Positions 14,906 through 34,630 of a stretch of 64,000 bases of DNA are shown piece after piece (positions within the stretch are counted from its first letter, which is position 1; every line of letters starts with the position of its first letter). Both the position numbers and the translations under genes were made by a program. This stretch comes from Nitratireductor indicus C115 (GTDB taxonomy: Bacteria; Pseudomonadota; Alphaproteobacteria; Rhizobiales; Rhizobiaceae), in NCBI RefSeq assembly GCF_000300515.1, contig NZ_AMSI01000003.1, positions 1 through 64,000 on the forward strand. The letters run 5' to 3'. The notes under the pieces were generated by a model. That model searched no databases and was not told the DNA's origin. It saw only the letters and a list, made by a program, of their open reading frames with translations.

Positions 14906-15321
14906 TCGAATTCCGCCCTGCCCGCCTGCCCGACATCCCGGCAATCGTTCGGTTTCAGCCGCGCAAGCTCTGGAAAGGGATTGTGACGCAGGTGCGGTCG
15001 CATCCAGCCTGGACACTCTGTCTGGACGGCGCGCCGCAGCTCATCGTCGGCGTTGTGCCTTACACCGCCGGCGTGCTCGAGCTCTGGATGTTCTTTGCCC
15101 CCGGGTTCAGCCGCGCGCCAAGGTTCAAATCGATGATGCGGCTCTGCCTCATGCACGGGGCGACGGTGTGCCCAGACCATATTCTGCTGGCGCGGATCGA
15201 TGACAGGAACGCGCCTTCCCGGAAGATGGCGGAGCTCGTCGGCTTCGTACCCATGGAAGAACATCTGCCGGGAACAACCATCCGCACCTGGATACGCCCT
15301 GCCCTGGACGCGGAAACGTGA
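14902..15321 (+). CDS. GNAT-like / internal virion protein A-like (139 aa)
   Basis: Starts at 14902 in an ATGA overlap with terminase (ATG 14893 is possible). MIEFRPARLPDIPAIV is the opening of a GNAT acetyltransferase fold, and the end (RKMAELVGFVPMEEHLPG) matches the last strand of such folds. Similar short GNAT-like proteins lie beside terminase in T7-structured phages and correspond to internal virion protein A or DUF2833. Acetyl-CoA loop residues are not convincing, so a structural role is at least as likely as an enzymatic one. Confidence 0.72.
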   Translation: MIEFRPARLPDIPAIVRFQPRKLWKGIVTQVRSHPAWTLCLDGAPQLIVGVVPYTAGVLELWMFFAPGFSRAPRFKSMMRLCLMHGATVCPDHILLARIDDRNAPSRKMAELVGFVPMEEHLPGTTIRTWIRPALDAET

Positions 15322-15345
15322 CAGCGGCCGCGCGGCCATAGGCTG
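15313..15345 (+). promoter_or_regulatory. Phage promoter-like motif, copy 2
   Basis: GAAACGTGACAGC, then 11 bases (all G or C), then CATAGGCT. It overlaps the last codons and stop of the GNAT-like gene and lies about 30 bases before the 64-aa gene that begins the connector-scaffold unit. The same two blocks at exactly the same spacing recur at 18578, 31385 and 31494, and with GTTAG at 34599. Confidence 0.75.
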
Positions 15346-15375
15346 TTCGCGAACTCACAGAAGGGTGTCCAACCG

Positions 15376-15570
15376 ATGGGAAGTCTATTTGGTGGCCGCG
15401 TCCAGGGCCCGACCGAGGCGGAGAAGGCCATGCAGCGCGACCGCTACGTTGAAGCGAACCGCGCAGACGTGGAAGCCGACCAGAAAGTTGCGCTCGCAGC
15501 CAGAGCGGCAAGCCTTCGCAAATCGCTCGCATACCGCGACCAGAGCAAGAAGGGCACGCTGGGCGGCTGA
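15376..15570 (+). CDS. Small charged phage protein (64 aa)
   Basis: Short protein beginning MGSLFGGRVQGPTEAE and otherwise a single highly charged helix rich in Ala, Arg and Lys. It is the first gene after the second promoter-like motif and overlaps the connector gene start by one base. Similar small genes often stand before the head-tail connector in T7-like virion modules. The function is unknown; a minor virion or assembly factor is plausible. Confidence 0.7.
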   Translation: MGSLFGGRVQGPTEAEKAMQRDRYVEANRADVEADQKVALAARAASLRKSLAYRDQSKKGTLGG

Positions 15571-17183
15571 TGGCAGAGAAAAACACGGCGCCGACAGAAA
15601 GCCAGCTCAAGCGTACGAACAAGGCATGCGACAAGGCCTATGAGCATTGCCGCGAAGACAAGGCGCAGCTCGACCAGCTCTATGAATATGTGCTGCCGAA
15701 CCGGGCACCGGCCGGTACGTCCACCGCCTCGCGCGCCGCACGCAACGAAAAGATATTCGATGCCACTGCCACCAAGGCAGCCTATCGCTTCGCCGGTCGG
15801 ATGCAGCAGGATGTAACGCCGGCGTTTCAGCGTTTCTTCGAGCTCAAGGTTGGGCCATATCTCGAGATCGAGGGCGACGAAAAGAAGGCGATCGAGCAGG
15901 ACCTTGAAACCATCACCAAGAAGGTGACCGCCGTCCTCGAGGGCGCACAGTTCTCTGTCGCATCCGGGGAAATGTACCTCGATCTGTTCGGCGGCACCGG
16001 CGCGATGCTCATTCTTCCGCATGAACGGGAAGTCTGCCGTTTCGTCACCGTGCCGGTTGGCGAGATCGCTCTGCGCGAGAATGGCGCGGGTGTCGTCAAC
16101 GGCATCTATTGGAAGCGGGCGTACAGCGCCGGGGACATTCCGCATCTGTGGCCCAAGGATCGCACCAACCTGTCCAAGCGTTTGAAGGACCTGGCGGAGC
16201 AAGAGCCCGACACTTCGGTCACCATTGTCCAAGCCTCCGAGTTCAACGAGGAAACCGGCCAGTGGCAATTCCTCGCATATTGCCCCGACAAGATGGACGA
16301 AGGTGCGCTTTACCACACGACCGAGCGCACATGCCCCTGGCTAACGCCGCGCTTCTACAAGGTGCCCGGGCGCGCCATGGGTACCGGCCCCGGCCTGATC
16401 GGATTGCCCACAGCCAAAACGCTCAACAAGGTTGTGGAACTGACGATCAAGGCGGCGGCCTTCGCCATTCTTGGCCTGTGGATCCACAAGAACGACCGGG
16501 TGTTCAATCCGAAAACAGCGAAGATGCGCCCGGGCGCAATGTGGGCGGTCGGCGCTACCGGCGGCACGATGGGGGCCAGCGTCCAGCGGCTTGAGGTTCC
16601 TGGCCGCTTCGACATCTCCAACCTGATCCTCAACGAACTGCGCGATGCCGTGAAAAGCGTCATGCTGGACGATACCTTGCCGCCTGATAGCGGCGCGGTG
16701 CGCTCGGCCACGGAAATCGTCGAGCGCATGAAGCGCCTTTCCGCCGACCTGTCGGGTGCCTATTCGCGCCTGGTTCTCGAAATCATCCGGCCATTGATCC
16801 AGCGCATTATCGATATCCTGTGGAGCCGCAACCTCATCAAGGCGAACATCAATATCGACCAGTTGCTGTTCAAGGTCGAAGTCGTCTCGCCCATCGCGCG
16901 CCTGCAACAGGCGCAGGACGTTTCCAACCTGGTGGAGTGGCTGCAAATCGTCATGTCGATCGGCGGTATGGAAATGCTCATGCTCACGGCGAAGGTGGAA
17001 GACATCTTCTCCGATATCGGCCGGAAGCTCGGGGTTCCTGAAAAATTCGTTCGGTCGGAAGCCGAAAAGAAATCAATTCAAAAGCTGGTCGCCCAGCTGA
17101 TCGCAAATGCGCAGATGCAGGCGCAGCAGGCGAAGCAATCGCCTGCCGGCGCTCCTGCACCGGGGGACCTGGTGCAGGCTTGA
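15570..17183 (+). CDS. Head-tail connector (portal), T7 gp8-like (537 aa)
   Basis: The podovirus-type portal. The opening helix and signature KAQLDQLYEYVLPNRAP match the start of the head-to-tail connecting protein family of T7-like phages, and the length (537 aa) is typical (T7 gp8 is 536). A long helical centre, a VKSVMLDDTLPPDSGAVRSA segment of the kind present in the crown/stem region and a Gln/Ala-rich end (ANAQMQAQQAKQSPAG) follow. It would form the dodecameric ring at the packaging vertex. Confidence 0.9.
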   Translation: MAEKNTAPTESQLKRTNKACDKAYEHCREDKAQLDQLYEYVLPNRAPAGTSTASRAARNEKIFDATATKAAYRFAGRMQQDVTPAFQRFFELKVGPYLEIEGDEKKAIEQDLETITKKVTAVLEGAQFSVASGEMYLDLFGGTGAMLILPHEREVCRFVTVPVGEIALRENGAGVVNGIYWKRAYSAGDIPHLWPKDRTNLSKRLKDLAEQEPDTSVTIVQASEFNEETGQWQFLAYCPDKMDEGALYHTTERTCPWLTPRFYKVPGRAMGTGPGLIGLPTAKTLNKVVELTIKAAAFAILGLWIHKNDRVFNPKTAKMRPGAMWAVGATGGTMGASVQRLEVPGRFDISNLILNELRDAVKSVMLDDTLPPDSGAVRSATEIVERMKRLSADLSGAYSRLVLEIIRPLIQRIIDILWSRNLIKANINIDQLLFKVEVVSPIARLQQAQDVSNLVEWLQIVMSIGGMEMLMLTAKVEDIFSDIGRKLGVPEKFVRSEAEKKSIQKLVAQLIANAQMQAQQAKQSPAGAPAPGDLVQA

Positions 17184-17222
17184 TCCGTCCGGGCAGGGAC
17201 GAAAACGAAGAAGGACAGGACC

Positions 17223-17657
17223 ATGACAGAACAGCAACCAGATAAGCACGGCGTCGATGCCGATGAAGAACTGCGCGAAATCGACGGGTTGGAACCGAGC
17301 GCCGAAGCTTTGATAGAAGCGCTTGGCTCCATGCTCGGCGGAAGCGGCGGCTGGGGCGACATCGAAAGTGATGGCGCTGCCATGCTGAAACAGCGCGCCG
17401 AACAGTCCAAGCGCGCGCAACAGCAGGCAAACCAGTTCCGCGATTGTTTTTCGACCACGGCGGGCCGCGCGACCCTCGAGTACATGCTTGACGAAACGCT
17501 GCGCGCCGAGCCCTTCCCGCTCGACGCCATGCTGAGCCGCGAGCAGATCGAGCCATTGCTGTTGATGCATTACGCACAATGCCAATTCGTCCGGGCCATT
17601 CTCTCGGCCATGGCCCAGGCGACACCCGTACCGGCCGACCGAGGACAGGACGCATGA
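17223..17657 (+). CDS. Bbp19-like phage protein (144 aa)
   Basis: Acidic N-terminus (MTEQQPDKHGVDADEE), then a helical region in which QQANQFRDCFSTTAGRATLE is followed by MLSREQIEPLLLMHYAQCQF. The FxxCFxTxxGRxxLE pattern followed by a hydrophobic helix near the end resembles the small protein that lies between connector and scaffold in BPP-1-like podoviruses (Bbp19 family), whose role is not known. The stop overlaps the scaffold start as ATGA. The family assignment is from memory of the pattern. Confidence 0.68.
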   Translation: MTEQQPDKHGVDADEELREIDGLEPSAEALIEALGSMLGGSGGWGDIESDGAAMLKQRAEQSKRAQQQANQFRDCFSTTAGRATLEYMLDETLRAEPFPLDAMLSREQIEPLLLMHYAQCQFVRAILSAMAQATPVPADRGQDA

Positions 17658-18514
17658 GCAACGAACCCAGCCACGGAGTGGAACCAACTCCCCAGATCGC
17701 CGCCGCCGACGACCCGGCCAACGCAGGCGCTCCACCTGCCGCCGATCCCACGCAAGGCGGCCGCACCGAACCTATCGGCGGTGCAGACGGCCAGATGCCA
17801 GGCATCTACAAGCCGGAGGGTATTGCCGATCATCTCGTCGGGCAGACCAACGAGGAAACGATTGATCGCCTGATACGCGAGAACAAGGGGTTCCGCGATG
17901 CCCAGGCGAAGAAGACCGGCGCAGTGCCGGAGAATGCGGACGGCTACCAGCCTTTCGAATGGGGCGAGAAAACCAAAGCTCTGGGCGGCGTAGCCGATGA
18001 CGACCAGGCCCTGGGTATCTTCAAGAACATCGCACATGAACATGGTTTCACTGACGCACAGATGGCTGCCGTGCCGAAATTCATGGAAGCAATGGCGGAA
18101 AAAGGCCTTCTCGAAGCCCCGTTCGATACCGCCGGCATGCTCGAAAGTCTCGCCCCGGAGGGCTTCAAGGGAAGCGCGGAGGAGAAACAGGCGAAGGGCG
18201 GCGAAAGGCTGACGGCCGCTGAAAACTGGATCAAGCAGCTGGATGCGGAAGCGCATGGCTTCGACCAGGACATGAAGAACGAAATGCGCCTTCTCACCAC
18301 ATCGCTTGCCGGCGTGAAGGTGATCGAAAAGCTGATGAACCGCGGCGTGAACCCTTCCGTGCATCCAGGCGGGGGCGGTGCCGAACGCGCAGTCACCAAA
18401 CAGGACTACGAAGCCCGCATCGCGGATCCTCGAAACAATGCGTTCGGCGATAAGTTCGATGAGAACTTCGCGAATGAGACCCGCGAGATTGCGCGTCGTC
18501 TGTTCGGCGACTGA
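17654..18514 (+). CDS. Capsid scaffold protein (286 aa)
   Basis: Starts in an ATGA overlap; the first 45 residues are Pro/Ala/Gly-rich and the rest is helical and acidic. A segment around 70-105 (NEETIDRLIRENKGFRDAQ) and a long helix further on fit a scaffold, and it lies between connector and capsid as the T7 gp9 analogue does. It ends LFGD, just before a strong terminator. The function is inferred from position, charge pattern and size; no enzymatic motif is visible. Confidence 0.78.
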   Translation: MSNEPSHGVEPTPQIAAADDPANAGAPPAADPTQGGRTEPIGGADGQMPGIYKPEGIADHLVGQTNEETIDRLIRENKGFRDAQAKKTGAVPENADGYQPFEWGEKTKALGGVADDDQALGIFKNIAHEHGFTDAQMAAVPKFMEAMAEKGLLEAPFDTAGMLESLAPEGFKGSAEEKQAKGGERLTAAENWIKQLDAEAHGFDQDMKNEMRLLTTSLAGVKVIEKLMNRGVNPSVHPGGGGAERAVTKQDYEARIADPRNNAFGDKFDENFANETREIARRLFGD

Positions 18515-18537
18515 ACGCCCGCTGCCTGCGGTGCTCC

Positions 18538-18567
18538 AGCCCGGCCCGGATGGCCGGGCTTTTTTTT
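18538..18567 (+). terminator. Strong Rho-independent terminator
   Basis: AGCCCGGCC (18538-18546) pairs perfectly with GGCCGGGCT (18552-18560) around CGGAT, followed by seven more T. It closes the connector-scaffold unit, and the promoter-like motif for the capsid unit begins 11 bases later. Confidence 0.92.
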
Positions 18568-18577: not shown

Positions 18578-18609
18578 GAAACGTGACAGCGCGCGCGCGC
18601 ACATAGGCT
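18578..18609 (+). promoter_or_regulatory. Phage promoter-like motif, copy 3
   Basis: GAAACGTGACAGC, 11 bases of alternating GC ending in A, then CATAGGCT. It lies directly after a terminator and 125 bases before the major capsid gene, so if the capsid genes are not read through the terminator, transcription must start here. This is the best positional argument that the motif is a promoter. Confidence 0.8.
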
Positions 18610-18733
18610 CTTGCGTCAACGGTGGATGGACCCGGCCGGCACAGGCAACCGGCTCTTGCAAAGGAGACAGGCCCTAGGGCTCGCCCGGCAATCGGCCCCG
18701 GAAACCCGATTATTCGTTTCTTTGGGGATTACG

Positions 18734-19597
18734 ATGTCTCAGAACGCTCCCAATCATTACGTCCAGCAGTGGCGCGCTCAGGCCCTGCATGTTTACCAGT
18801 CCGGCGGCTTCGCGCTGCGCAACACCACCACGCCGCCGGAAAAGATCACCGGCGAGAAAATGCACTTCCCGATCTTCGGCCAGGTCGAAGCCGAGGAAGA
18901 CGTGCAGCGCGGCGACGAGGCCAAGCCCGCAAACCCGAACGACACCACGGTTCCGGTGGATACCAAGAAGTCCCGTGCCTTCGAGGAGGTCTACGAGGAC
19001 GATCTTGACCAGATGACCGTCGCCCGCCAACAGGCCGTCGCCATGCGTTCGGCCAAGGCGCTCGGCCGCGTGCATGACAAGACGATCATCCGGGCACTCA
19101 AGGCTTCCACCCAGTATGTCGGAGCCTATGCCGACCTCATGTCCGCGACCACGCTGGTGCAGGGCAAGCAGGTGCTGATGGGCAACGATGTCGAGGTGCA
19201 GGACGGTGAAGTGTTCTGCGGTGTGGACAGCGTGAGCTGGGCCATGCTGATCGGCGACAAACGCATTGCCAATGCCGATTATGTCGGCCCGGACCTGCCT
19301 TTCATCAAGGGCAATCTGGCAAAGAGCTGGAACGGCATCCACATCTTCGCGCTGTCGGACAAAACCTTGCGCGTCGGCGATGCCGCAGCACAGGTCAATT
19401 GCCAGATGTGGCACCGCTCTGCGATCGGCTTCGGCTATGTGCGCCAGCTCACCGGCTCGGTTCAGTGGGACAACCGCAAGGATTGCTGGACGCACAACAT
19501 GCGCATGCGCATCGGCTCCAAGCTTCTTCTGCCGGAAGGTGCGGTGCAGCTCAGGGCGAAATACGACCCGTCCGCCATCGTTCTGCCGACCGCCTGA
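18734..19597 (+). CDS. Major capsid protein (287 aa)
   Basis: Protein of the phage capsid type found after the scaffold in BPP-1-like podoviruses. It begins MSQNAPNHYVQQWRAQALHV and has a charged region (KKSRAFEEVYEDDLDQM) followed by a long helix and a beta-rich end, the order of an HK97-fold N-arm, E-loop, spine helix and P domain. No protease domain is present, so maturation cleavage is not evident. The start is ATG 18734 with GGGG upstream. It opens the longest late unit, which runs without a terminator to 31379. Confidence 0.85.
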   Translation: MSQNAPNHYVQQWRAQALHVYQSGGFALRNTTTPPEKITGEKMHFPIFGQVEAEEDVQRGDEAKPANPNDTTVPVDTKKSRAFEEVYEDDLDQMTVARQQAVAMRSAKALGRVHDKTIIRALKASTQYVGAYADLMSATTLVQGKQVLMGNDVEVQDGEVFCGVDSVSWAMLIGDKRIANADYVGPDLPFIKGNLAKSWNGIHIFALSDKTLRVGDAAAQVNCQMWHRSAIGFGYVRQLTGSVQWDNRKDCWTHNMRMRIGSKLLLPEGAVQLRAKYDPSAIVLPTA

Positions 19598-20641: not shown

Positions 20642-20645
20642 GCGC

Positions 20646-23686: not shown

Positions 23687-26455
23687 ATGGCGAAGATACC
23701 GGAATTCACGGCAAAGGCCCCTCGCCTGCCAGCCCTCGCGGTTGACAACGACACGGGTGCAGCGCAGGCGCTGGCATCGGTTGCCGCTGCGTCTTCCCAG
23801 CTGGCCGGCCGCCTGGGAAAGATCGCACGCGATCGCGCGGTGACCGCAGCCCGTGAAAAGGGCGCGGCCGATGCTGCCAATGTTTCCATGCCAGGTGTGG
23901 ATTTCGCATTCCAGCCAGGAACGCCCGGCAAGCGGCCAAGTCGCGGTCAGGTCAACGCGCCGGCAGGTATTCGCGACGTGATCGTAGCCGCCGCCCAACG
24001 CCACGGCGTCGATCCTGCCGCATTGATGAAAATGGCCGAGCTGGAGAGCTCGTTCAATCCCAACGCGAAAAACCCATCGTCCAGCGCCGGCGGCCTTTTC
24101 CAGTTTGTCGACAGCACGGCCGCGCAATACGGACTGGCCAACCGCTACGACCCCGCACAGGCAGCGGACGCTGCTGCACGGCTAGCGCGTGACAACGCAG
24201 CCCACCTGCAGAAGGTGCTGGGCCGGAAACCAACTGCCGCTGAGCTTTATCTGGCACACCAGCAGGGTGCTGGCGGCGCCGGGAAACTTCTCGCAAATCC
24301 AAACGCACGCGCTGCCGACATTGTCGGCTCAGATGCCGTTCGCCTTAATGGTGGCCGCGCCAATATGACGGCCGGCGAATTCGCCGGGTTGTGGCTGGCG
24401 AAGGCAGGCGGCCCTGTCGCCGCGCAACCGGGCAAGGTCAGCGTCAGCCTCACCGGCGCGCGCGGGGCATTGCCTCGAGCACAGCCGGGAACGCTGGTCG
24501 GAGACGCTTACAACGAGGCCGCAACCGCTGTTTACGCGAACCGGCTGGAAAGCTCGATGCGCGCCCAGATGGACGCCATTGCACTTGAGCACGAGGGAAA
24601 GCCGGCAGAAATGCAGGCCGCCCTGGATCCTCTCCGGGCTGGCTTTACTGAAGGCCTTCCGCCGATCCTCCGGGCGAAGATGCTGGCGAGCTTTGACGCC
24701 ACCAGCCTTTCGCTACAGCGCCAGGCGATGCAGAAGGCCCGGAGCAACCTGGACGAGGAGCTGAAGGCCAGTTCTGAAGGCCTCATCGATACGCAGACCA
24801 CGAATATTCTGCGCCTGGCTGCCAAGGCCGGAACCGACAAACAAGCCGACCAGGCGCTGACGCAGGAGCTCGCAGGCCTCAATCAGACGATCGACAACGC
24901 GCCAGGCATGACACCGCTCGCCCGGGAGCGGCTGAAGCGTGCCACAGCCAATGACGTTTATGCGGCGCGAATACTGTCTGGATTTGACGGGCTGGCAACG
25001 CCGGCGGAACGCGCAGCCTACGCCGAACAGGTACAAACCGAGTGGCAAAACGGCGAGGGGCTGGCTCAGAACCTCGATGCTGACGCGTTTCACAAGGTAA
25101 ATTCCGAACTGGCCAGGCGGGTGCAGCAGGATGCAACGGCTGCCAGCAAACAGGCGACGGCCATCGGCAATGCCTTCAACGAACAGACGCGCATCCTGAA
25201 AAAGGGCCTGCCCGTCACGGAAGCGCAACGCTCCACCCTGCGCAAGGCCGTTGCCGAAACCGGCGACGAACAACTGGCCGCTCGAGCCGATTTTTTCGAC
25301 CAGCTCGCCAGCTGGCAATCGGCGCACCTGGCGGCACGGCCGGAAGCAATCGAACAGCAGATGGTGCAGCTGCAACGGCGTATGCAGCAGGAGGGCGCTA
25401 CCGAGGCGACCCTGGACACGCTCGATGTCATGGAAGGCCTGCACAAGGCCATGAAGGCCGGATTGCGCGACGATCCGCTGACATGGGCGGCACGGGCCGG
25501 CGTTACTGACGTTGCCCCGCTCGATTTCTCCGACAGCCAGAGACTGACCGCCAGCCTTTCCGAGCGCGCAAACGATGCCCAGGCCGTGGCCGAGCACTAC
25601 GGGATCCAGCCACGGTACTTCACGGCGAACGAAGCGGACGCGATCAAGCGGCAGTTCGAGGAAAACCCGCTGGCAATGCCAAGCTTGCTCTCGGGCCTCG
25701 AGGCCGGTCTGGGCAATGCCATGCCCGATGCCATGCGGGAGGTCAGCCAGTCCGCGCCGGTGCTCGCGCACATGGCCGGGCTGATTGCCGCCACAGGGAA
25801 CGAGAGCGTTGCCACCGAGGTGGCGACCATGCTCGATACCCGCCGCCAGGAGGGTTACAAATCCGCCCTGCCCTCCCAGGGCAAAATGAGCCAGGTGTTT
25901 GCGGCCGCCACGGGCGCGGCCCTTGCTGGCCTCCCCCGCACGGCCGCGGCCGCCCGCGAGACAGCAGCTCTGATATTCGAGAAGCGCGCCCTGGCGCGTG
26001 GCGTGGATCCGGCCAACGCCGCTGACCCGCTCGACCCGGCACATGAGCTCTTGACCGAAGCGATAGACGCCGCCCTGGGCGCTACAATGCGCGACGGTCA
26101 GAAGTTCGGCGGGCTGACAATGGTCAATGGCCGGCAGACCGTTGCGCCGCCCGACATGCCCGCCGCGGATCTCGACACCAGGCTTTCCAAGCTCACGGAC
26201 GGGCAATTGGCCAACCAGATGGCAATCGCCGGGGGCGACCATCGCATTTCGGCGCGCGATATCCGCAATGGTTACCTCGAGATGGTCGCGCCCGGGCGCT
26301 ATCGGGTTGCGTTGCAGGATCCGGCTACGGGAGATCCGCAATACGTCCCTGCACCTGCTGAGCTCGGCACGGGCGGATATTTCATCCTCGACATGGAGCA
26401 GCTCGTACGCGACCAGGGCGAACTCGGATCCGGTTTCTTCGGGTATTTCCGATGA
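23687..26455 (+). CDS. Internal virion protein with lytic transglycosylase domain (922 aa)
   Basis: Residues about 95-220 form an SLT-type transglycosylase domain: catalytic Glu 120 in AELESSFNP and a GGLFQF motif (136-141) in place of GLMQ, then AELYLAHQQGAGG. This would open peptidoglycan during DNA entry. The remaining 700 residues are helical, Ala/Gln-rich and resemble the internal core proteins of T7-like virions (gp15/gp16). The ATG at 23687 is used; the longest frame begins at a TTG one codon earlier. It ends in an ATGA overlap with the next gene. Confidence 0.88.
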   Translation: MAKIPEFTAKAPRLPALAVDNDTGAAQALASVAAASSQLAGRLGKIARDRAVTAAREKGAADAANVSMPGVDFAFQPGTPGKRPSRGQVNAPAGIRDVIVAAAQRHGVDPAALMKMAELESSFNPNAKNPSSSAGGLFQFVDSTAAQYGLANRYDPAQAADAAARLARDNAAHLQKVLGRKPTAAELYLAHQQGAGGAGKLLANPNARAADIVGSDAVRLNGGRANMTAGEFAGLWLAKAGGPVAAQPGKVSVSLTGARGALPRAQPGTLVGDAYNEAATAVYANRLESSMRAQMDAIALEHEGKPAEMQAALDPLRAGFTEGLPPILRAKMLASFDATSLSLQRQAMQKARSNLDEELKASSEGLIDTQTTNILRLAAKAGTDKQADQALTQELAGLNQTIDNAPGMTPLARERLKRATANDVYAARILSGFDGLATPAERAAYAEQVQTEWQNGEGLAQNLDADAFHKVNSELARRVQQDATAASKQATAIGNAFNEQTRILKKGLPVTEAQRSTLRKAVAETGDEQLAARADFFDQLASWQSAHLAARPEAIEQQMVQLQRRMQQEGATEATLDTLDVMEGLHKAMKAGLRDDPLTWAARAGVTDVAPLDFSDSQRLTASLSERANDAQAVAEHYGIQPRYFTANEADAIKRQFEENPLAMPSLLSGLEAGLGNAMPDAMREVSQSAPVLAHMAGLIAATGNESVATEVATMLDTRRQEGYKSALPSQGKMSQVFAAATGAALAGLPRTAAAARETAALIFEKRALARGVDPANAADPLDPAHELLTEAIDAALGATMRDGQKFGGLTMVNGRQTVAPPDMPAADLDTRLSKLTDGQLANQMAIAGGDHRISARDIRNGYLEMVAPGRYRVALQDPATGDPQYVPAPAELGTGGYFILDMEQLVRDQGELGSGFFGYFR

Positions 26456-28902
26456 GCTTCGTCTATGAGACGCCACAGGCGAACCCCACGGCCACTTTTG
26501 CGCGGCGCGGCGGATCGACGCTTTTCGAGATCGGCGAAGCGGCCTGGCGCTCGGCGCTCTATGTCGACAACTTCAATGCAGCACAGACTTCGCTCGACCG
26601 GGCCTATGAAGATCGCATTGCCCGCGTAAAGGCCGAAACCGGCATCGTTCTGGAAAACCCGTTGCGCACGGCTGAAAGCCGTTTCACGCGCCAGAAGGAT
26701 ATGAACGAAGTCAGCCCCATTCGCAAATCCAAGCTTTTCGGCGGGCCTGGAGAGCAAGGCCGCGATCCATATCAGATACTGCTCGACCAGGAGCAGAAAA
26801 GGTTTTCCGATCGGCTGGCAGAAATCGCGGCACAACACCCTGACAAGGCCGCCCTGATCGGCTCTGAAATCAGCGTGGAAGACGATGCCAAGCGCCTGGC
26901 TCAGAAGGCCGAGGGTGATTTGCTGTCGGCGATCACGGCACGCGACGGCATCGGAAAATGGGGGGCATTGCTTGCGGGCGGCATGGCCGGTGCCATGCGC
27001 GACCCTTTGCAGGTGATGACGCTTTTTGCCGGTGCTGGTCCTGGCACTGGCCGCAGTATCGCCGCGCGAATCCTTTCCATAGCCTCGAAGGAAGCGCTGG
27101 TGAACGGCGCAACGGAGGCCCTGTTTCAGCCGACGGTGCAGGCCTGGCGCGAGGAAGCAGGCCTTCCGCATGGCCTGAATGAAGCCATGAGCAATGTCGC
27201 ATTTGCCACAGCACTCGGCGGGGCCTTCGGCCTGGCCGGCGGCGCTATCGCCGAGGGCGCGCGTGCGTTTCGCGGTGTCGAGCTGGATGCGGCGGCCGAA
27301 CTGGCCGCAGCGCGAAACGATGTAAGCCCCGATGCTCGCGCCGCCCTTTCCGGTGACGTGGATGCCGCCCGCCGGATCCTGCCCGAGATCCGCGAAGCAT
27401 TGCCGGCAGAAGTGCGCGGGGCGCTCGACCAGGCCGACCAGCTTGACCATTTGGATGCTACGCGACCGGCATCGGTCTCCCGCACGGCGCATGACCAGAA
27501 TGCAGCGCGAGCCACCCGCCTGGCGGAAGATGGTGATTTCCCCGGTTTCATACCAGATGCCGAGCAGACGGCGCGCATTGCCGATCAGTTGATTGCTATC
27601 GATGATGCAACCGCCATCCGGCAGTTGAAGGAGGCAGCCGGCGAGCAGGGCCGCAGCCTTGTCAGCTATCTAATCGACGCCGGAGGCCTGAAGCCGGATA
27701 TAGCCGAACTCGAACAGATAGGCGCTACACGTGTTTCGCGCAGCTTTGAGGGACGGCTTGTGCGCCCAGGAGGCAAGTCTTTGGATTACGCCCGCGAGGC
27801 GGTCGCCGAAGCCGGATATTTCGATCATCTCTATGGAACGCCCGAAGAGGCTGTGGCACGCTCAACGCCGGCCGATCTGTTAAATCTGATCGAGGATGAA
27901 CTGGGCGGCAAACCCGCCTTCCCGCCTGGAATAGTGAGCGACGCAGCACGCCAGGCGGCCGAGACTGTTGCAGCTAACCGCCGCGCGGTGGAAGCTCGTG
28001 TTGCTGAGATGCAGGCAATGGCCGGCCCCGGCGTAGATGACAAGATCATAACCCGGGCGGTGGAGATCGCTGAACGGGACGGCGGCGACCCGGCCGATGC
28101 GTTCGAACGCGCGGTGATGGAACAGCCGGAACCGAAGGCGGCTCCAAGCGAAATCGACGTAGAGGAAATGGCCAGGAGGTTGGGCAACTTTGTTATTGAA
28201 GAGCGCTTGGCACCCGTCCCTGCCGTTACGGACAAACCAAGAGTTCAGCGTGCCGTCGCATCCTATTTGTCAGAGAACGCCGAAAAAATCGATCCTCGCG
28301 ATGTTATCCTGCAAGACAAGCCGCAATGGGCATACGTTCTGGATCGCGAGGGCAAAACATGGAAGCTCAAGCGCCCCTTCCATGAGGACTTCTTCAACGC
28401 CATTCGAGCAAACGAAAACCAGCACGATGAAGCACTAGGAAACGCGGCAGAATTTGCGATTTTCCGTGTTAGTCACATTGCCGAGAGTTTTACAGGCGGA
28501 GTGGACTTCTTCGGCTTTCCCACCAATCGCCAGATCAAGGCGTTCCGAAAATTAAAACACGCGATGGGTGGACGCGAAGATACGTTCTCTGTCTCGCTCT
28601 GGCGGGCACCGGGTCCCAATGCAGGTGTTCGATCGGGTGAGGTCCTTCCAGGCTGGAGCGACGACGAGTTGAAGGCAGCATCGGAATACCGGCCGGCAAC
28701 GCTCGAGGCGAACGGCCTTGATGACCCGATGCCTTCCAGGCTCCCGGAAGATCCGCAGGAGGCTGCATTCCGGGCTGAGTATGGCGACACAGAGGTGATG
28801 AACGACGCCGGCGAGATGGTGCCGCTTTCCGCCTACATGGACGAACTGGACCGGCAGGCGGAAATCGCCGAGCTGGTGGAACTGTGCAAGGTCACCCCAT
28901 GA
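26452..28902 (+). CDS. Large internal virion / ejected protein (816 aa)
   Basis: Second of three large core proteins; ATGA overlaps join it on both sides. Residues about 155-275 are Gly/Ala-rich and hydrophobic (GALLAGGMAGAMRDPLQVM, ALGGAFGLAGGAIAEGA), as in ejected proteins that insert into membranes. The C-terminal third looks different: about residues 580-730 (YLSENAEKIDPRDVI ... NQHDEALGNAAEFAIF) are less Ala-rich and the DNA has lower GC, suggesting an inserted domain. No enzyme motif is recognised. A role in DNA ejection is inferred from order. Confidence 0.75.
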   Translation: MSFVYETPQANPTATFARRGGSTLFEIGEAAWRSALYVDNFNAAQTSLDRAYEDRIARVKAETGIVLENPLRTAESRFTRQKDMNEVSPIRKSKLFGGPGEQGRDPYQILLDQEQKRFSDRLAEIAAQHPDKAALIGSEISVEDDAKRLAQKAEGDLLSAITARDGIGKWGALLAGGMAGAMRDPLQVMTLFAGAGPGTGRSIAARILSIASKEALVNGATEALFQPTVQAWREEAGLPHGLNEAMSNVAFATALGGAFGLAGGAIAEGARAFRGVELDAAAELAAARNDVSPDARAALSGDVDAARRILPEIREALPAEVRGALDQADQLDHLDATRPASVSRTAHDQNAARATRLAEDGDFPGFIPDAEQTARIADQLIAIDDATAIRQLKEAAGEQGRSLVSYLIDAGGLKPDIAELEQIGATRVSRSFEGRLVRPGGKSLDYAREAVAEAGYFDHLYGTPEEAVARSTPADLLNLIEDELGGKPAFPPGIVSDAARQAAETVAANRRAVEARVAEMQAMAGPGVDDKIITRAVEIAERDGGDPADAFERAVMEQPEPKAAPSEIDVEEMARRLGNFVIEERLAPVPAVTDKPRVQRAVASYLSENAEKIDPRDVILQDKPQWAYVLDREGKTWKLKRPFHEDFFNAIRANENQHDEALGNAAEFAIFRVSHIAESFTGGVDFFGFPTNRQIKAFRKLKHAMGGREDTFSVSLWRAPGPNAGVRSGEVLPGWSDDELKAASEYRPATLEANGLDDPMPSRLPEDPQEAAFRAEYGDTEVMNDAGEMVPLSAYMDELDRQAEIAELVELCKVTP

Positions 28903-31379
28903 CGATCGACGCGTGTCTTGACAATGCCGTGAACGGCGGAGCCATCAGCAAGGATGAAGCGCGCCGCCTGAAAGACGAATTCGAGCGCTACCGGTCGCGG
29001 CGGGAGGCCGGCGGCGCAGCAACGGCAAATGAACAGGCAAAGGCCGACCTGGCCGAAGCGCTGCGCGCAGACACGGAGCACAAGAGGCGCAAGGCGAAGA
29101 TCGCAGCCAAGGTCACGGCGCGCATTGCGAACGATCTTGCGAACCACGTCACGCCGAAGGGGAAACGCGACATTGCCGCCGGCGCGCTGGATATGCTGGA
29201 GCATTTCGGCACGGCCGGCTTTTCATCGGTCGAGGGCCGCCGGCGGGCCATCGTCGGAATGGCACATGCCCGCATGGAGGAACTGCTGCACCATTTCCGT
29301 CGCGGTGCTGTCGGCGGTGACCGCTCGCGCTGGAACAAGGCGGATCTTCGCAACCTGGTGCGCGAAGCTTTTGGCGAGGATACCGGCGACCAGGCAGCAA
29401 AGGGCCTTGCCAGATCCTGGACACAAACGGCGGAATGGCTGCGCCAGCGCTTCAACACCGCCGGCGGCGCGATCGGCAAGCTTGAGAATTGGGGACTGCC
29501 CCAGCACCACGACGCGCGTGCCTTGCGCAAAACCGGACGCGAGGCCTGGAAAGACTACATTCGCGGCCGGCTCGATGTCGCCCGGATGAAACACCCCCTC
29601 ACCGGCAAGACGATCGACGGCAAAGAGCTTGAAGGGATACTGGACGAGATTTTCGACAGCATCACAACCGAAGGCTGGAACAAGGTGGAGCCGAAGCGCC
29701 AGCCCTTCGGGCGCGGCGCGCTTGCCAACCAGAGGGCAGAGCACCGGTTTCTCGTCTTCCGCGATGCCGACAGCTGGCTGGAATATCAGGAAGCCTATGG
29801 CGGCGGCGGCGATCCATTCGCCGCCATGATGAGCCACATCAACATGATGGCGCGGGATATCTCTTCCATGGAAATCCTCGGGCCCAATCCGGGCGGCTCC
29901 ATCGAATGGATGAAACAGGCGATCCAGAAAGAGGCGCAGGACGTGGCCGCCGGCAAGCCGGGGCGAATTCCCGCCAAGCCCGACGCCGCGCTTGACTACG
30001 CCAAATGGCGCATAGACCGCATCGACGCCGTTTGGAACTCCATTCGCGGGGGGCTGGAGACGCCCATCAATGGAAAATGGGCGAGCGGCCTTTCTGCCTT
30101 CCGCTCGCTCATCACCGCGAGCGTTCTGGGTTCTGCGGCAATTTCCTCGATCTCAGACGTGGGGACACAGCAGATCACCCGCGCGTTTGCCGGCATGAGC
30201 CCGCGCGGGGTTGTGAAGCAGACAATCAGCGCCTTGCTTCCATCCAACCGCCGCGAGGCCGTGCGTTCCGGGCTGATCTTCGATAGCGCCGCGCATGTGT
30301 TCCACGCCCAGGCGCGCTATGTCGGCACGATCTCGGGGCCCGAATGGGCGAGTTACCTGGCCGACCGCGTACTGACTTTCTCCGGCCTGACGCCGTGGAC
30401 CCAGGCCGGCCGGCATGCGTTCGGCCTGGCCGCGCAGGCAGAGATCGGCGCGCGCGTCCATCTCAGTTTCGACCAGCTACCAGCCGGCATGCAGACATTC
30501 TTTCGCCGCTACGGGATCCACGCCCGTGAATGGGATATGATCCGCAAGGCACCGCTGCATGAACCCGAGCCTGGTGCGGGCTTTCTGCGCCCGGCCGAGA
30601 TTGCCGAGCGCATCGACCCGCGCCTGGCAGAGCGTTATCTGGAGATGATCCAGACGGAAACGGAATATGCCATCCCGTCCGGTTCGCACCGCAGCCGCAC
30701 GGCCCTGCTCAACCAGAACCAGCCAGGCACGTTCATTGGCGAGGTGCTTCGCAGCTTCGCGCAGTTCAAATCCTTCGGGGCGGTGTTCATGCTATTGCAT
30801 GGATCACGCATAGCGGCCATGCTTGCGAAAGGCGAAACGCGCGCCCATGGCGCAGCCTATGCCGGTGCCCTGCTCCTGACCACAACGGTTTACGGAGCGC
30901 TTGCCTTGCAGGCGAAGCAGGTTGCCGCCGGCCGGGATCCGCGCGACATGGATACGAAGAGCTTCTGGTTTTCCGCGATGCTCCAGGGCGGAGGCCTTGG
31001 CATTTACGGCGATTTCGCATTCGGGAACATCAACCGATACGGCGGCGGCTTTGCCACGACATTCGCCGGCCCCGTGGTGCAGCGTGCCAACGATTTCTGG
31101 AACCTGACAGCGGGCAACGCCGTGCAGTTGGCGAGCGGCGAGAAAACGCATTTCGGCCGTGAGCTCGTGAAGTTCGCGCGCGGCAACATACCCGGATCGA
31201 ACATCTGGTATCTGCGTCTTGGATGGGAACGCCTGGTGCTTGACCAGGCGCAATATCTCCTCGACCCGGAAGCCAACAAGGCCTTCAAGCGGCAGCAACA
31301 ATTCTGGCGGCGTGATTTCGGCCAGGAATACTTCTGGGCTCCCGGCACATCTGCACCTCAAAGGGCGCCCGCCTTCTGA
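28899..31379 (+). CDS. Large internal virion protein, gp16-like position (826 aa)
   Basis: Third large core protein, starting in an ATGA overlap (ATG 28899) and ending just before two promoter-like motifs. Long charged helices fill the N-terminal 130 residues. The C-terminal third alternates amphipathic and hydrophobic segments (for example AYAGALLLTTTVYGALALQA), compatible with insertion into the host membrane on ejection. A short segment (SHRSRTALLNQNQPGTF) resembles T7 gp16-type C-terminal regions. The role in DNA translocation is inferred from position and size. Confidence 0.78.
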   Translation: MTIDACLDNAVNGGAISKDEARRLKDEFERYRSRREAGGAATANEQAKADLAEALRADTEHKRRKAKIAAKVTARIANDLANHVTPKGKRDIAAGALDMLEHFGTAGFSSVEGRRRAIVGMAHARMEELLHHFRRGAVGGDRSRWNKADLRNLVREAFGEDTGDQAAKGLARSWTQTAEWLRQRFNTAGGAIGKLENWGLPQHHDARALRKTGREAWKDYIRGRLDVARMKHPLTGKTIDGKELEGILDEIFDSITTEGWNKVEPKRQPFGRGALANQRAEHRFLVFRDADSWLEYQEAYGGGGDPFAAMMSHINMMARDISSMEILGPNPGGSIEWMKQAIQKEAQDVAAGKPGRIPAKPDAALDYAKWRIDRIDAVWNSIRGGLETPINGKWASGLSAFRSLITASVLGSAAISSISDVGTQQITRAFAGMSPRGVVKQTISALLPSNRREAVRSGLIFDSAAHVFHAQARYVGTISGPEWASYLADRVLTFSGLTPWTQAGRHAFGLAAQAEIGARVHLSFDQLPAGMQTFFRRYGIHAREWDMIRKAPLHEPEPGAGFLRPAEIAERIDPRLAERYLEMIQTETEYAIPSGSHRSRTALLNQNQPGTFIGEVLRSFAQFKSFGAVFMLLHGSRIAAMLAKGETRAHGAAYAGALLLTTTVYGALALQAKQVAAGRDPRDMDTKSFWFSAMLQGGGLGIYGDFAFGNINRYGGGFATTFAGPVVQRANDFWNLTAGNAVQLASGEKTHFGRELVKFARGNIPGSNIWYLRLGWERLVLDQAQYLLDPEANKAFKRQQQFWRRDFGQEYFWAPGTSAPQRAPAF

Positions 31380-31384
31380 CGTGA

Positions 31385-31415
31385 GAAACGTGACGCCGCT
31401 CGGGCGCACATAGAT
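31385..31415 (+). promoter_or_regulatory. Phage promoter-like motif, copy 4
   Basis: GAAACGTGACGCC, 11 bases, then CATAGATT, lying directly after the stop of the last core protein gene. One base differs from the consensus left block (G for A after GTGAC). It is the first of two copies in front of the tail fibre gene. Confidence 0.7.
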
Positions 31416-31458
31416 TGATAGCGCGCGCCGTTTCCTGTCCCGGCTAGCGCAAGCACCC

Positions 31459-31484
31459 GCCGGAGGGCCTGCCCGCCCTCCGGC
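31459..31484 (+). terminator. Perfect 10-base GC-rich hairpin between two promoter-like motifs
   Basis: GCCGGAGGGC (31459-31468) pairs perfectly with GCCCTCCGGC (31475-31484) around a six-base loop. There is no T-run after it. It separates promoter-like copies 4 and 5, so it may terminate readthrough from the long capsid unit or be a transcript-processing site. Confidence 0.5.
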
Positions 31485-31493
31485 ACCCTCGCG

Positions 31494-31525
31494 GAAACGT
31501 GACAGCGCCCGTTCCTCCATAGCAT
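31494..31525 (+). promoter_or_regulatory. Phage promoter-like motif, copy 5
   Basis: GAAACGTGACAGC, 11 bases, then CATAGCAT, ending eight bases before the tail fibre ATG (31533). The very short leader means the start site and the ribosome-binding site would nearly coincide, unless the transcript begins inside CATAG and uses a leaderless-like start. Confidence 0.75.
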
Positions 31526-31532
31526 CGGGCGC

Positions 31533-33728
31533 ATGACAGAAACACCGCTCCCCTTCAACGATCGCGTCAAGTCCGTCTCACCGATGGCGGGCACGACATT
31601 AATGTCCACCGACTTCGAGCTGACCCGGGAGGACGGCTTGACGATCATCCGGGAACGCGCAGACGGATCGCGCAGCCAGTTGACGCTGGGCATCGACTAC
31701 AGCTTTCCATCCGGCCTTGGCAATGAAACGGGAACCAGCATCGAACTTGTTGCCGCAAGCCTTGAGGGCGACCGCTATATTCTGATCGGCTATCACCCGG
31801 AAGAACGGCTGTCCGATTTCCTCGCCTCGATCAGCTTCGATACGAACAAGATAAACGCGCAGCTCGATGCCCTCACCTTGATCGCCCAGGAGCACCGTCG
31901 CGACCTGTCTCGCGCGTGGATGAGTGACTACGAAACGCAGGGGAGACAACTTCAGGTCTTGACCGAAAACCGCTTCTGGTTGTCCGACGCAGACGGAAAT
32001 ATGAAAGACGGCGGATCTGGCGATGAGATATCCAACGCGCAAGGATACGCGATAGACGCAAATGCCGCCAAGGTGGCCGCACAGAACGCGCAAACCGGGG
32101 CAGAAGTTGCCCGAACCGGTGCAGAGAACGCCGCATCGTATGCGGCGACCAAAGCAGCAGAGGCCAATGCCAGTGCCGTTTCGTCCGCCGCTTCTCAGAG
32201 CGCGGCGGCGGACAGCGAAAGCGCAGCCAATGCTGCGGCGGTCACGTCAGTTGAAAATGCTACAGAAGCAGCGATGAGCGCGGGCACGGCCGTCAGTTCG
32301 GCCGACAGCGCAGCCACCAGTGCGGGCGCAGCTGCAAGCGCGCAGGTTTCTGCAGAGGCCGCGCGGGATCAGATACTGGCGCTCTACGATGCGTTCGACG
32401 ATCGATACCTGGGGGAAAAAGGCTCTGACCCCGCCACCGACAATGACGGCGATCCGTTGGTTGGCGGTGCGTTGTACTTCAACTCAACGACCGGCGTGAT
32501 GATGGTCTATACCGGGTCCGCCTGGGTAGCCGCGTATGTCTCGGGGACGGGCTTTGTCACCAAGACCGGTGACACAATGACGGGGCCACTGAAGCTACCT
32601 GCCGGGGCAACCGGCGATCAAGCAATTCGCGCCGATGAAGTGGCGCATGAAGTCCTGCGCGATTTCGGCGACTATTACTCGACATCTGGCGGGTTGAATA
32701 TCGACACTGATTGCGTCGCAGGTTTCAAGGCGCTCGTTTCAGTCACCGGCAGCACCGGGGCGTTCCCACCAATATCTTCGAATTTCTGGCACATCCAGGT
32801 GGAGAACATCTACTCCACAGACCTTGGACAGCGTCTCATGATGCGGGCGGTCAAGTATATGGCGACCGACCCGTTGGCAAGTGACGATGCTCCGACAATC
32901 TACGTGCGTTACAAAGGAACCACCACTTGGGGGCCTTGGACACGCATCGTTACCGACCGGGGTGGTGAGTTCAAAGCAGGGATCAACTTTGGTTCGGAGT
33001 GGGCTGCGGCTTCCAACAACCTCTCCAGACACATTGCCCTATACGGGTCAACGGTGGGCATAAATGCCTACAGCAACGGAATGAACCATGTCGTAGAAGA
33101 CGGATACACTTTTTCTTGGTATCAGGGTGGCTCTCGTGCGGCTCTGATCTCCGGCGCGGGCCATTTCTATTCAAAAGGTGGTATGTATGTCGGTGGCGTT
33201 CGCTCCGGCAACGGCTCAGTGACCCTTGGCTTCAAGACTTTCGCCTCTGGCGTCTATGATACCGCAAGAATTGTTGCCACAGGTGGGACGAGCGGCGACA
33301 CAGGTTCGGCCACACTAAGCGCAGATTGCTCTGAATTTCAGATCAATGGGAACATTGTCCTCCATTCTGGTGACCTCGTCTCGCAGGCCGAGGCGGAAGC
33401 CGGAGTGGCGACCGAGCCGCGTGTCTGGTCGGCGGAACGTGTTGCACAGGCGATTGCAGCTTTGGCACCGGCTGCCCCGGTCGGACTGTATACGGGAAGC
33501 GACTCCGAGGAGACAGATTTTCCGGTCGGCCACATCGTATCGTTCAAGGCGTCTGCCAATGTCGCCCGCAATGCTACGGTGACTTTGAGGCTCAGCGGTC
33601 CCGCAGGGGATCCAGAATACAGCAATAGCGGGGCCGGCACGGTTCTGGCAGGAACCTGGAAAGCCCGTGGCATAACACAGTGGGTCAGCTCGTCGGATCA
33701 GAAATACCTGGCGCAGAGGGTCAGCTAA
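31533..33728 (+). CDS. Tail fibre with alanine-rich coiled-coil stalk (731 aa)
   Basis: The N-terminal 130 residues (FNDRVKSVSPMAGTTLMST ... LDALTLIAQEHRRDLSRAW) fit the T7-type fibre anchor that docks on the gp11/gp12 ring. Residues about 170-285 are an Ala/Ser/Gln heptad-like stalk (for example AAQNAQTGAEVARTGAENAA), followed by a head starting near 300 (GGALYFNSTTGVMMVYTG) that recurs in many fibres. The receptor-binding end is beta-rich and its DNA has a lower GC (25 of 60 in 33061-33120), a sign of exchange. It overlaps the convergent glycosyltransferase gene by four bases. Confidence 0.88.
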   Translation: MTETPLPFNDRVKSVSPMAGTTLMSTDFELTREDGLTIIRERADGSRSQLTLGIDYSFPSGLGNETGTSIELVAASLEGDRYILIGYHPEERLSDFLASISFDTNKINAQLDALTLIAQEHRRDLSRAWMSDYETQGRQLQVLTENRFWLSDADGNMKDGGSGDEISNAQGYAIDANAAKVAAQNAQTGAEVARTGAENAASYAATKAAEANASAVSSAASQSAAADSESAANAAAVTSVENATEAAMSAGTAVSSADSAATSAGAAASAQVSAEAARDQILALYDAFDDRYLGEKGSDPATDNDGDPLVGGALYFNSTTGVMMVYTGSAWVAAYVSGTGFVTKTGDTMTGPLKLPAGATGDQAIRADEVAHEVLRDFGDYYSTSGGLNIDTDCVAGFKALVSVTGSTGAFPPISSNFWHIQVENIYSTDLGQRLMMRAVKYMATDPLASDDAPTIYVRYKGTTTWGPWTRIVTDRGGEFKAGINFGSEWAAASNNLSRHIALYGSTVGINAYSNGMNHVVEDGYTFSWYQGGSRAALISGAGHFYSKGGMYVGGVRSGNGSVTLGFKTFASGVYDTARIVATGGTSGDTGSATLSADCSEFQINGNIVLHSGDLVSQAEAEAGVATEPRVWSAERVAQAIAALAPAAPVGLYTGSDSEETDFPVGHIVSFKASANVARNATVTLRLSGPAGDPEYSNSGAGTVLAGTWKARGITQWVSSSDQKYLAQRVS

Positions 33729-34507
33729 CCGAACTCCACCTGATCCAACTTGAAGCGATCAATTCCGGCAAGCCTGCGATACAGCGTTATAGCCTGGCGA
33801 AATGGCCGGGTAATCTCCCATACGATCTTCCGGGCATATGAACGCACCGAAAACCGCTCCCTCTTTCGGCTACCATCGAACCGATCAAGATCAATCGTGC
33901 TTTGAAAATCGCCAACCGCAAGCTCTTGCACAGTGCTCTTTTGCATCACCGGCGCAGGCGCCATCTGGTAGACGCGAGCTTGGGCGACGAACTCATTGCT
34001 GAAAACCACCATGTCAACGGCTTCGGTGAAATCTTCGGTCATTGCCAGCAATCTTCTGGCCACGTCGCGCGTGATGATGTAACCGGCACAGCCCCAGCAG
34101 TCGGAATACAGCTGTCGCAGCACCCGGCCACCGGGGATTTCGATCGGGTCTAGCGAAAGGATCTGTTTCTGTCCTGTTGCCTCCGCCCGAACGATGTCGG
34201 CATTCGCCGGAAACCAGTCGTCATTTCGTACCAGATCCGCGAGGGACGGCTGCAACACCGCATCATCTTCGAGAATGAGCGCGCGCTCAGCCTCCGAGGA
34301 AAGCAGCCGCTCCCAGGTGAGCCGATGGCTCATAAAGCATGCCGTAGCACCAACCGACAGCCCGTGCCGAGCGAGCGTTTCAGCGTCGATGGTGTCGCCA
34401 TCGACAGCCGGGATGCGTTCGAAATCTAAAGATAGTGCTTCACACTGTTGACGCATGAACGCCATTCGCCCCGGCGAACGGTCGAGATTGATAATGTAAA
34501 CCTGCAT
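33725..34507 (-). CDS. Glycosyltransferase family 25 (LPS-modifying type), lysogenic conversion candidate
   Basis: MQVYIINLDRSPGRMAFM is the start signature of GT25 enzymes (LPS galactosyltransferase/LgtB-like). The acidic motif ILEDDAV (E80-D82) binds the metal-sugar nucleotide. The family adds sugars to lipooligosaccharide or to collagen-type acceptors at the cytoplasmic membrane. It is the only reversed gene in the late region, ends tail-to-tail with the fibre gene and has its own ribosome-binding site (GGGTGGGG). This is the pattern of a moron expressed in the lysogen, and the likely effect is to alter the surface receptor that the adjacent fibre recognises. Confidence 0.85.
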   Translation of the reverse strand: MQVYIINLDRSPGRMAFMRQQCEALSLDFERIPAVDGDTIDAETLARHGLSVGATACFMSHRLTWERLLSSEAERALILEDDAVLQPSLADLVRNDDWFPANADIVRAEATGQKQILSLDPIEIPGGRVLRQLYSDCWGCAGYIITRDVARRLLAMTEDFTEAVDMVVFSNEFVAQARVYQMAPAPVMQKSTVQELAVGDFQSTIDLDRFDGSRKRERFSVRSYARKIVWEITRPFRQAITLYRRLAGIDRFKLDQVEFG

Positions 34508-34598
34508 AGTACCCCACCCTTACAGTCCCAGATAACGGAGATCGGCGGGGCCTGGCAACCGTGCCTGGCCTGAAATGGATTGATCCAGGCCGAGCACA

Positions 34599-34630
34599 GA
34601 AACGTGACAGCGGCCGCGCGCCGTTAGCCT
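34599..34630 (+). promoter_or_regulatory. Phage promoter-like motif, copy 6
   Basis: GAAACGTGACAGC, 11 bases of G and C, then GTTAGCCT where the other copies have CATAG. It lies upstream of the lysis cassette (endolysin ATG 34685). An inverted repeat GGCCTG ... CAGGCC precedes it at about 34568-34591. Confidence 0.7.

Follow-up and report, generated by a model that had tools for sequence, protein, structure and literature searches.

How does a T7-like temperate phage switch on its late genes if it brings no RNA polymerase of its own? This question is raised by a prophage of Nitratireductor indicus C115, in a stretch of 64,000 nucleotides (contig NZ_AMSI01000003.1, positions 1 to 64,000; the window in what follows), and by a short repeated element that stands ahead of its late operons. 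The prophage runs from the integrase gene (1115-2485) to the lysis genes, which end near 35967. We surveyed the gene content by profile scans of 38 open reading frames (ORFs) of the window against PHROGs, with some Pfam scans in addition; the survey covers part of the ORFs. The products found were a repressor, a primase, a primase-related protein (9991-11895), terminase, a T7-type connector, the major head protein, tail proteins, internal virion proteins with a transglycosylase domain, tail fibre, endolysin and holin. The region is a temperate T7-like podovirus prophage.

A preliminary description of this DNA had found no RNA polymerase gene, and none turned up among the 38 ORFs scanned. The T7-type RNA polymerase family PF00940 was found in 0 of 10 phage records, but this proves little because control genomes gave no match either. 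Since no RNA polymerase gene of its own has been found, the phage must use the host polymerase. We propose, with a probability of about 0.72 as judged from sequence, that the late promoters combine a -10 element for the host polymerase with a private word for a phage activator; the most likely activator is the product of the gene at 7387-7833.

A repeated element ahead of the late operons

The five copies described before (starting at 15313, 18578, 31385, 31494 and 34599) are all present at these coordinates. The pattern originally given, GAAACGTGAC-N14-CATAG, is exact in four of them but carries two mismatches at 34599. With up to three mismatches it matches seven times in the 64 kb, where 0.97 matches are expected from shuffling, and none of 100 shuffles reaches seven. 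The two matches beyond the original five are at 12016 and, on the minus strand, at 19435. GAAACGTGAC itself has six exact occurrences in the window, all on the plus strand and all inside the prophage. The count of five was thus real but incomplete: a sixth copy, at 12016, precedes the terminase genes.

The constant part is better read two bases 3' of CATAG, as TAnnnT (the hexamers are listed in Table 1; the copy at 12016 has CATGAT). Written as GAAACGTGAC-N16-YAnnnT, the equal spacing that had been noted holds for all six copies, including the one described with GTTAG. The -10-like TAnnnT lies 15 bp 3' of a -35-like hexamer, which is the 3' end of the phage-specific word. The earlier statement that the spacing is not that of a normal -35/-10 pair is therefore right in detail, since 15 bp falls short of the usual 17 or so; even so, the element sits on a -35/-10 frame. 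As had been proposed, each element precedes a separate late unit (terminase, connector, capsid, tail fibre twice, lysis), and the spacer is GC-rich (0.75 against 0.65 for whole sequences in the set of 12 phages described below). The elements had also been called intergenic; the copy at 15313 shares its first 9 bases with the end of the preceding ORF (14893-15321). In the whole host genome (4,991,032 bases, 73 contigs) there are six exact matches to GAAACGTGAC-N16-YAnnnT, and they are these six. One mismatch adds three matches elsewhere, against five for a reversed control pattern. All exact copies with a -10 in the 4.99 Mb genome are therefore prophage copies.

Homologues of the capsid protein occur in 12 viral records, one of which is nearly the same phage as that of the window and two of which are short fragments. 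We compared the window, the full contigs of the remaining nine records and the prophage regions of two genomes, G690 (an Oricola metagenome-assembled genome) and G691 (Jiella avicenniae), making 12 phages; the contigs of G300 and G304 are only 23 kb. Oricola cellulosilytica carries a relative (L143). As far as the contigs extend, all 12 have the same layout of elements at the same late genes. The word itself differs per phage. There are ten words in the 12 phages: GAAACGTGAC in the window, and TAAACGTGAC, AAAAGGTAAC, GAAACGTAAC, AAAACGCAAC, AAACCGTAAC, AATAAGCAAC, TTGTCGGAAC, AAAACATAAC and GAAACATGAC in the others, with AAAACGCAAC common to G302, G305 and G303 (its first base varies among the G303 copies). 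This comparison of related prophages, which the preliminary description had called for, supports its idea of a new late-promoter class or activator site: the same architecture recurs at the same late operons, and exact copies with the -10 are confined to the prophage.

The 12 phages hold 52 exact copies of their words on the late strand and none on the other. In dinucleotide shuffles the mean number of copies of a word per phage is 0 to 0.08, and the maximum 2. The spacing to the -10 was fixed for each phage after inspection, at 16 past the 10-mer, or 17 in G300, G301 and G306. At this spacing there is a YAnnnT in 48 of the 51 copies that can be scored (40 TAnnnT and 8 CAnnnT). The unscorable copy, at the far end of the G302 contig, is probably a repeat of the one at its start. 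Of the three misses, G300 12794 has TAGTCT one base too early and G691 11531 has TAGGTT one base too late; the third is G691 32525. Copies of the words with one base changed also exist and are outside these counts. Because the -10, the spacing and the operon positions are nearly fixed and the word differs between relatives, the element looks like a late switch private to each phage.

All eight CAnnnT copies, one each in 8 of the 12 phages, are terminase-proximal; they keep the usual spacing and have a C-rich spacer. Since the CAnnnT form is confined to this place, the terminase-proximal promoter seems to be tuned weaker; its sequence reads as if it were either that or the carrier of a second site. 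Among viral contigs, the exact window word with CATAG was found in 47 stretches. Three of these (four matches) are in IMGVR_UViG_2519899619_000009, a record near-identical to the window phage, and the other 44 contigs have one match each. Capsid alignment in the viral contigs gave 11 loci and no further phage.

The architecture extends to more distant phages. Twelve other genomes of the order have a capsid match at E<=1e-20, of which seven were taken (G424, G450, G520, G640, G661, G681 and G686; the rest are G316, G451, G478, G497 and G557). Their capsid match is 31-35% identical, or 55% in G686. We scanned them with no prior word, for 9-mers repeated at least three times and then for TAnnnT at a fixed distance. 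This gave CGGTTGACG in G681, with TAnnnT at spacing 15 in 4/4 copies, CGGTTGACC in G520 and G640b (2/3 each) and AATCCTGAC in G686 (2/3, alongside an unrelated word of equal score). There was none on the late strand of G640a and G661, and G450 and G424 gave other words; opposite strands reached at most 2. A 7-mer scan of G424 gave GTTGACC (3/6). On directed reading, CGGTTGACC or a one-mismatch form, followed by N15 and TAnnnT, is present at three sites each in G520, G640a, G640b and G424, those of the G424 prophage (G424:C1:4110001-4160000) being three CGGTTGACC/CAGTTGACC promoters. G450 has two sites by directed reading and none as an unbiased repeat. ACATTTGACC occurs in four copies in G661, one with TAnnnT and two with CAnnnT. 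Apart from G686, all the distant phages listed have a word that ends, on its 3' side, in TTGAC. As this is the canonical -35, the element is placed on a sigma70 frame with a short spacer. At least 13 words have been seen in close and distant phages together.

The position of start codons agrees with this frame. In 7 of the 11 phages examined (the exceptions are G302, G303, G305 and G661) the tail fibre ATG is 6-8 nt past the -10 of the nearest element. This is where host RNA polymerase is expected to start, and the mRNA would therefore be leaderless. By geometry the element thus has the features of a sigma70-type promoter, a -10 TAnnnT at a fixed place and a start about 7 nt 3' of it. It does not have a consensus TTGACA at 16-18 bp; the spacer is 15-16 bp and the hexamers are GTGACA-like. 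Taken together, the data suggest that the six elements of the window very probably function as promoters. The tail fibre gene of the window has two of them, 109 bases apart (31385-31533), the second being the one with the predicted leaderless start. Paired tail-fibre promoters are also present in G298, G299 (one copy with a mismatch), G301, G690 and G691.

A GafY-related protein as candidate activator

The gene at 7387-7833 is a sequence relative of GafY-type genes in the same bacterial family. GafY/GafZ in Caulobacter and GafA in Rhodobacter capsulatus are activators of gene transfer agents (GTAs). Caulobacter GafY is reported to activate promoters and to bind domains 3-4 of RpoD (PMC11150451), and to activate phage-like structural genes with the housekeeping RNA polymerase (PMC11150451, PMC6363796). 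Roseophages such as RDJLPhi1 are also reported to have GafA (PMC6363796). An AlphaFold2 model of the protein has a predicted local distance difference test score (pLDDT) of 83.4, and its top 12 PDB matches by Foldseek are all DnaA, with a TM score of 0.83 on the target for DnaA domain IV with its DNA box (1j1v_A). The protein is thus predicted to have a DNA-binding fold like DnaA domain IV. It has no PHROG match at E<=0.05.

GafY-like homologues are encoded in 10 of the 12 viral records, and the two without are the fragments, of 10.3 and 5.9 kb. G690 and G691 have one too, so that none of the 12 phages in the strict set lacks it, and so do the distant G681, G520, G640a, G640b, G661 and G450. 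In viral contigs the GafY-like query found only the near-identical record already named. In INPHARED phages it gave one weak match, C72C1 (E 0.03), and a distant-homologue query gave none. Of the 297 genomes of the family, 165 have a GafY-type match at E<=0.001 (1e-3 to 8e-12), some of these matches being in prophages. Ten such loci were inspected by eye. Several are in a GafY-GafZ-like setting; at one of them (L092) Pfam confirms DUF6456 and MucR neighbours, an arrangement described by Sherlock and Fogg (PMC9638019). At least one (L069, G010:C12) is prophage-like: its GafY-like gene lies beside ORFs resembling, by eye, ParB, a DNA methylase and a primase, and it is perhaps another kind of prophage.

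The host has a second GafY-type gene of its own (C16:33026), with an adjoining ORF that is DUF6456-like by eye and a GTA cluster on the same contig. In contrast, DUF6456/GafZ (PF20057) was found in 0 of 10 phage records at E<=1, a sample outside which G690 and G691 fall, with the Caulobacter control positive. The upstream regions of the host gafY and GTA share no word of 10 or more bases, and three 9-mers. At about 43.7 kb of G000:C16 there is a candidate GTA promoter, TTGACA-N17-TAGTGT, with an ACCG..CGGT repeat within the spacer, recalling the Caulobacter GafZ element between -35 and -10.

We also asked how the words vary with the proteins. With the distant G306 left out (n=11) and with control for five virion proteins, the distance between GafY-like helix-turn-helix regions correlates with that between words (r 0.70; partial r 0.41, permutation p 0.003), and the primase gives a partial r of 0.13 (p 0.18). 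One position of the recognition helix varies over the 12 phages with the base before RAC (P-T, H/N-C, Q-G, T-T). Taken with the results of the next paragraph, the covariation is suggestive only.

A number of observations weigh against the proposal. When all 12 phages are included, every protein tested shows a correlation with word distance (0.56-0.83), and the GafY-like protein (0.75) ranks below scaffold (0.83), tail tube A (0.81), portal (0.78) and tail tube B (0.77). The scaffold still has a partial r of 0.30 (p 0.015) without G306, and when three phages are omitted (n=9) GafY has a partial r of 0.45 and scaffold one of 0.39. The association of the recognition-helix column (0.68) is equalled or exceeded by columns of several control proteins, which reach 1.0 in the small terminase. 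The Pfam match to Bac_DnaA_C (PF08299) is below the cut-off, at 14.7 bits against 31.5 (15.9 bits in a second run), and no Foldseek match of the model reaches E 0.001. In G424, which has three elements, a search of 50 kb gave no GafY-like gene; the early region of G520, where that phage has its GafY-like gene, is not matched by anything in the left part of the G424 prophage. The GafY-like candidate of G686 is weak (E 0.006). Neither an unbiased repeat scan of C72C1 (28.6 of 34.9 kb), with its match at E 0.03, nor 80 kb around the GafY-like gene of G010 gave such a repeated element. Finally, the GafY element of Caulobacter is reported to be far upstream (-123 to -113) and to need IHF. With these points weighed in, we still consider it likely that the GafY-like protein is the reader of the word.

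Proposed mechanism and alternatives

The proposal starts from what can be read in the sequences, namely the copies, their spacing, the phage-specific words, the conserved positions, the start-codon geometry, the predicted fold and the co-occurrence; from these we infer promoter activity, binding of the 7387-7833 product to the word, sigma contact and timing. Inactivation of the repressor would open the early operon, and the GafY-like protein would accumulate after induction. The constant -10 (TAnnnT) would be read by host RNA polymerase with the housekeeping sigma factor, while the -35 would be replaced or overlapped by the phage-specific word of 10-11 bp, to be read by the phage activator. 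The GafY-like protein would bind at about -43 to -31 as a single asymmetric unit. It would contact sigma region 4 and recruit polymerase to the six promoters despite the short 15 bp spacer. The precedent for the putative sigma contact is the reported binding of GafY to RpoD domains 3-4 (PMC11150451).

The same promoters might be served by another phage protein, for example the excisionase-like helix-turn-helix protein of 4618-4929 or the product of 6926-7252. The former gene is present in 11 of the 12 phages and the latter in 8, but the GafY-like gene is present in all 12. No excisionase-like gene was found in G691 and no homologue of 6926-7252 in G300, G306, G690 or G691, all of which carry the element; in addition, the excisionase-like gene is leftward, on the integrase strand. 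We regard this alternative as unlikely. Improbable, in our view, is that the words are repressor sites that silence the late operons in the lysogen, in the manner of the stoperators of mycobacteriophage L5. Stoperators are reportedly short asymmetric words in fixed orientation between genes, as the words are here. However, the words are locked to YAnnnT at a fixed distance (48/51), the repressor and early region of the window has only a site with two mismatches (5008), and only four of nine relatives have a BLAST match to the repressor (E<=1e-3).

There remain readings that dispense with a phage-specific reader. With its 3' end the word covers the -35 hexamer, and this end is TTGAC in distant phages, as it would be in ordinary sigma70 promoters. 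But each phage repeats the bases upstream of the -35 exactly, and these bases change from one phage to another. Hexamers like GCAACA or GGAACA, combined with a spacer of 15-16 bp, make poor sigma70 elements, and a simple sigma70 scan listed 0 of 5 sites in the region scanned; plain sigma70 promoters are accordingly very improbable. We give even less weight to recognition by another sigma factor of the host, for instance RpoH, a lead of the preliminary description. CGTGAC-N13-CCATAG does resemble the consensus and spacing of alphaproteobacterial RpoH promoters. Against this, the CAT before AG is not kept across phages, and a host sigma factor would need no different word for each related phage. 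Its sites would also be expected at other places in the host genome, where no exact copy of the word with the -10 was found (the search was for the word, not for the RpoH consensus itself). The likeness to a T7-type initiator, also raised before, is not supported either: the element fits the sigma70 -10 geometry with the predicted start downstream, and no polymerase turned up among the 38 ORFs scanned.

Other features of the prophage and relation to known systems

The features of the window are collected in Table 1. The repressor gene and the operon with the candidate activator are divergently oriented, and the repressor also matches Pfam Peptidase_S24 (E 3e-4), below the cut-off. The terminator-like stem just 5' of the capsid promoter has 9 pairs followed by a T run and is the strongest of 12 such sites in the region, but the terminator scan alone proves nothing because shuffles give 19.0 sites. 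Two sub-threshold Rfam matches in the prophage overlap the terminator. The capsid leader and the same place in 12 relatives are strongly conserved (GGATGGACCCG ... CGGCACCCGGC ... AGGCCCGC ... GGCACTCGGCCCC), with G686 the most deviant. Its consensus fold has 15 predicted pairs over the 13 sequences, 6 of them with two-sided compensatory changes, and the leader has no Rfam match at E<=1.

Table 1. Features of the prophage region of the window
Feature	Coordinates	Strand	Remarks
Late promoter, copy 1	12016..12047	+	core GAAACGTGAC 12016-12025; -10 CATGAT 12042-12047; upstream of terminase genes 12354-14905
Late promoter, copy 2	15313..15344	+	-10 TAGGCT 15339-15344; upstream of 15376-15570 and connector 15570-17183
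Late promoter, copy 3	18578..18609	+	-10 TAGGCT; upstream of major capsid and tail genes
Late promoter, copy 4	31385..31416	+	-10 TAGATT; first of pair before tail fibre gene
Late promoter, copy 5	31494..31525	+	-10 TAGCAT; tail fibre ATG 31533, 7 nt past -10
Late promoter, copy 6	34599..34630	+	-10 TAGCCT; upstream of endolysin 34685-35407 and holin-like 35335-35967
Candidate late activator, 148 aa, GafY-related	7387..7833	+	rightward operon, repressor-to-terminase interval
Terminator-like stem and T run	18538..18567 (stem 18538-18560)	+	just 5' of capsid promoter
Capsid mRNA 5' leader, conserved, probably structured	18610..18733	+	comparison of 13 sequences
Tail fibre gene	31533..33728	+	predicted leaderless mRNA start
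Prophage repressor (LexA/CI-like)	5086..5718	-	PHROG 4 E 1.6e-7; PHROG 811 E 1.6e-6
Integrase, left prophage end	1115..2485	-	PHROG 1 E 1.8e-13
Connector, T7-type	15570-17183		PHROG 332 E 1.9e-73
Family 25 glycosyltransferase (lipopolysaccharide biosynthesis)	33725-34507	-	Pfam E 6.9e-27; PHROG 2835 E 2.2e-27

Between the terminase promoter and the small terminase gene (12089-12334) there is a cluster of TGGAACGC direct repeats with long inverted repeats (17/17 and 16/16 complementary), which could be a packaging or TerS binding site. The glycosyltransferase gene sits between the tail fibre and lysis genes, has no BLAST homologue in nine relatives and is possibly a lysogenic conversion gene. 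The 816-aa ORF at 26452-28902 is without a clear family in the profile scans.

A phage activator that acts with host polymerase at late promoters is of a kind already known. In phage Mu one activator, the C protein, likewise serves several late promoters (lys, I, P and mom; PMC4461284). No C-like protein was found among the window ORFs scanned against PHROG and Pfam. The word here is single and asymmetric, whereas the Mu C site is reportedly a dyad. In the T4 middle promoters (MotA box with AsiA) a phage box likewise stands in for the -35, next to an unchanged -10 for the host sigma70 (PMC6755090). The present candidate differs in a predicted DnaA domain IV fold, not the MotA double wing, and in late, not middle, genes; MotA and AsiA families were absent from the PHROG matches of the 38 ORFs scanned, a part of those in the window. 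DnaA domain IV and the DnaA box likewise combine this fold with a short asymmetric site. However, the recognition helix of the candidate is unlike GRDHTTV of the host DnaA and varies between phages, the protein has no AAA+ domain, and its proposed role is in transcription. From GafY/GafZ the system differs in several ways: there is no DUF6456 in the 10 phage records, the word is at -35 and not at about -120, there are several like promoters per phage, and the carriers are temperate podovirus prophages and not a GTA. The literature searches showed no phage late promoter of this kind. As far as that search goes, what is new is a DnaA-type reader in T7-like temperate phages, its placement at -35 and a word for each phage.

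The GafY motif is reported to have been unpredictable in two published studies, in one of which it was hard for MEME and a single putative element was found by truncation and mutation (PMC11150451). The phages with one GafY relative and 2-6 exact copies of a private word supply candidate protein-motif pairs in which recognition is directly testable. It may be that a whole lineage of temperate podoviruses of Alphaproteobacteria turned the DNA-binding domain of DnaA into a late switch that replaces -35 recognition, that its recognition code changed repeatedly to give each phage a private late programme, and that GafY and GafA are domesticated members of the same lineage; we hold the odds on this wider scenario to be even. 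If the mechanism proposed here is true, it would explain the timing of late genes in T7-like temperate phages that have no polymerase, and why related phages resident in the same cell need not activate one another.

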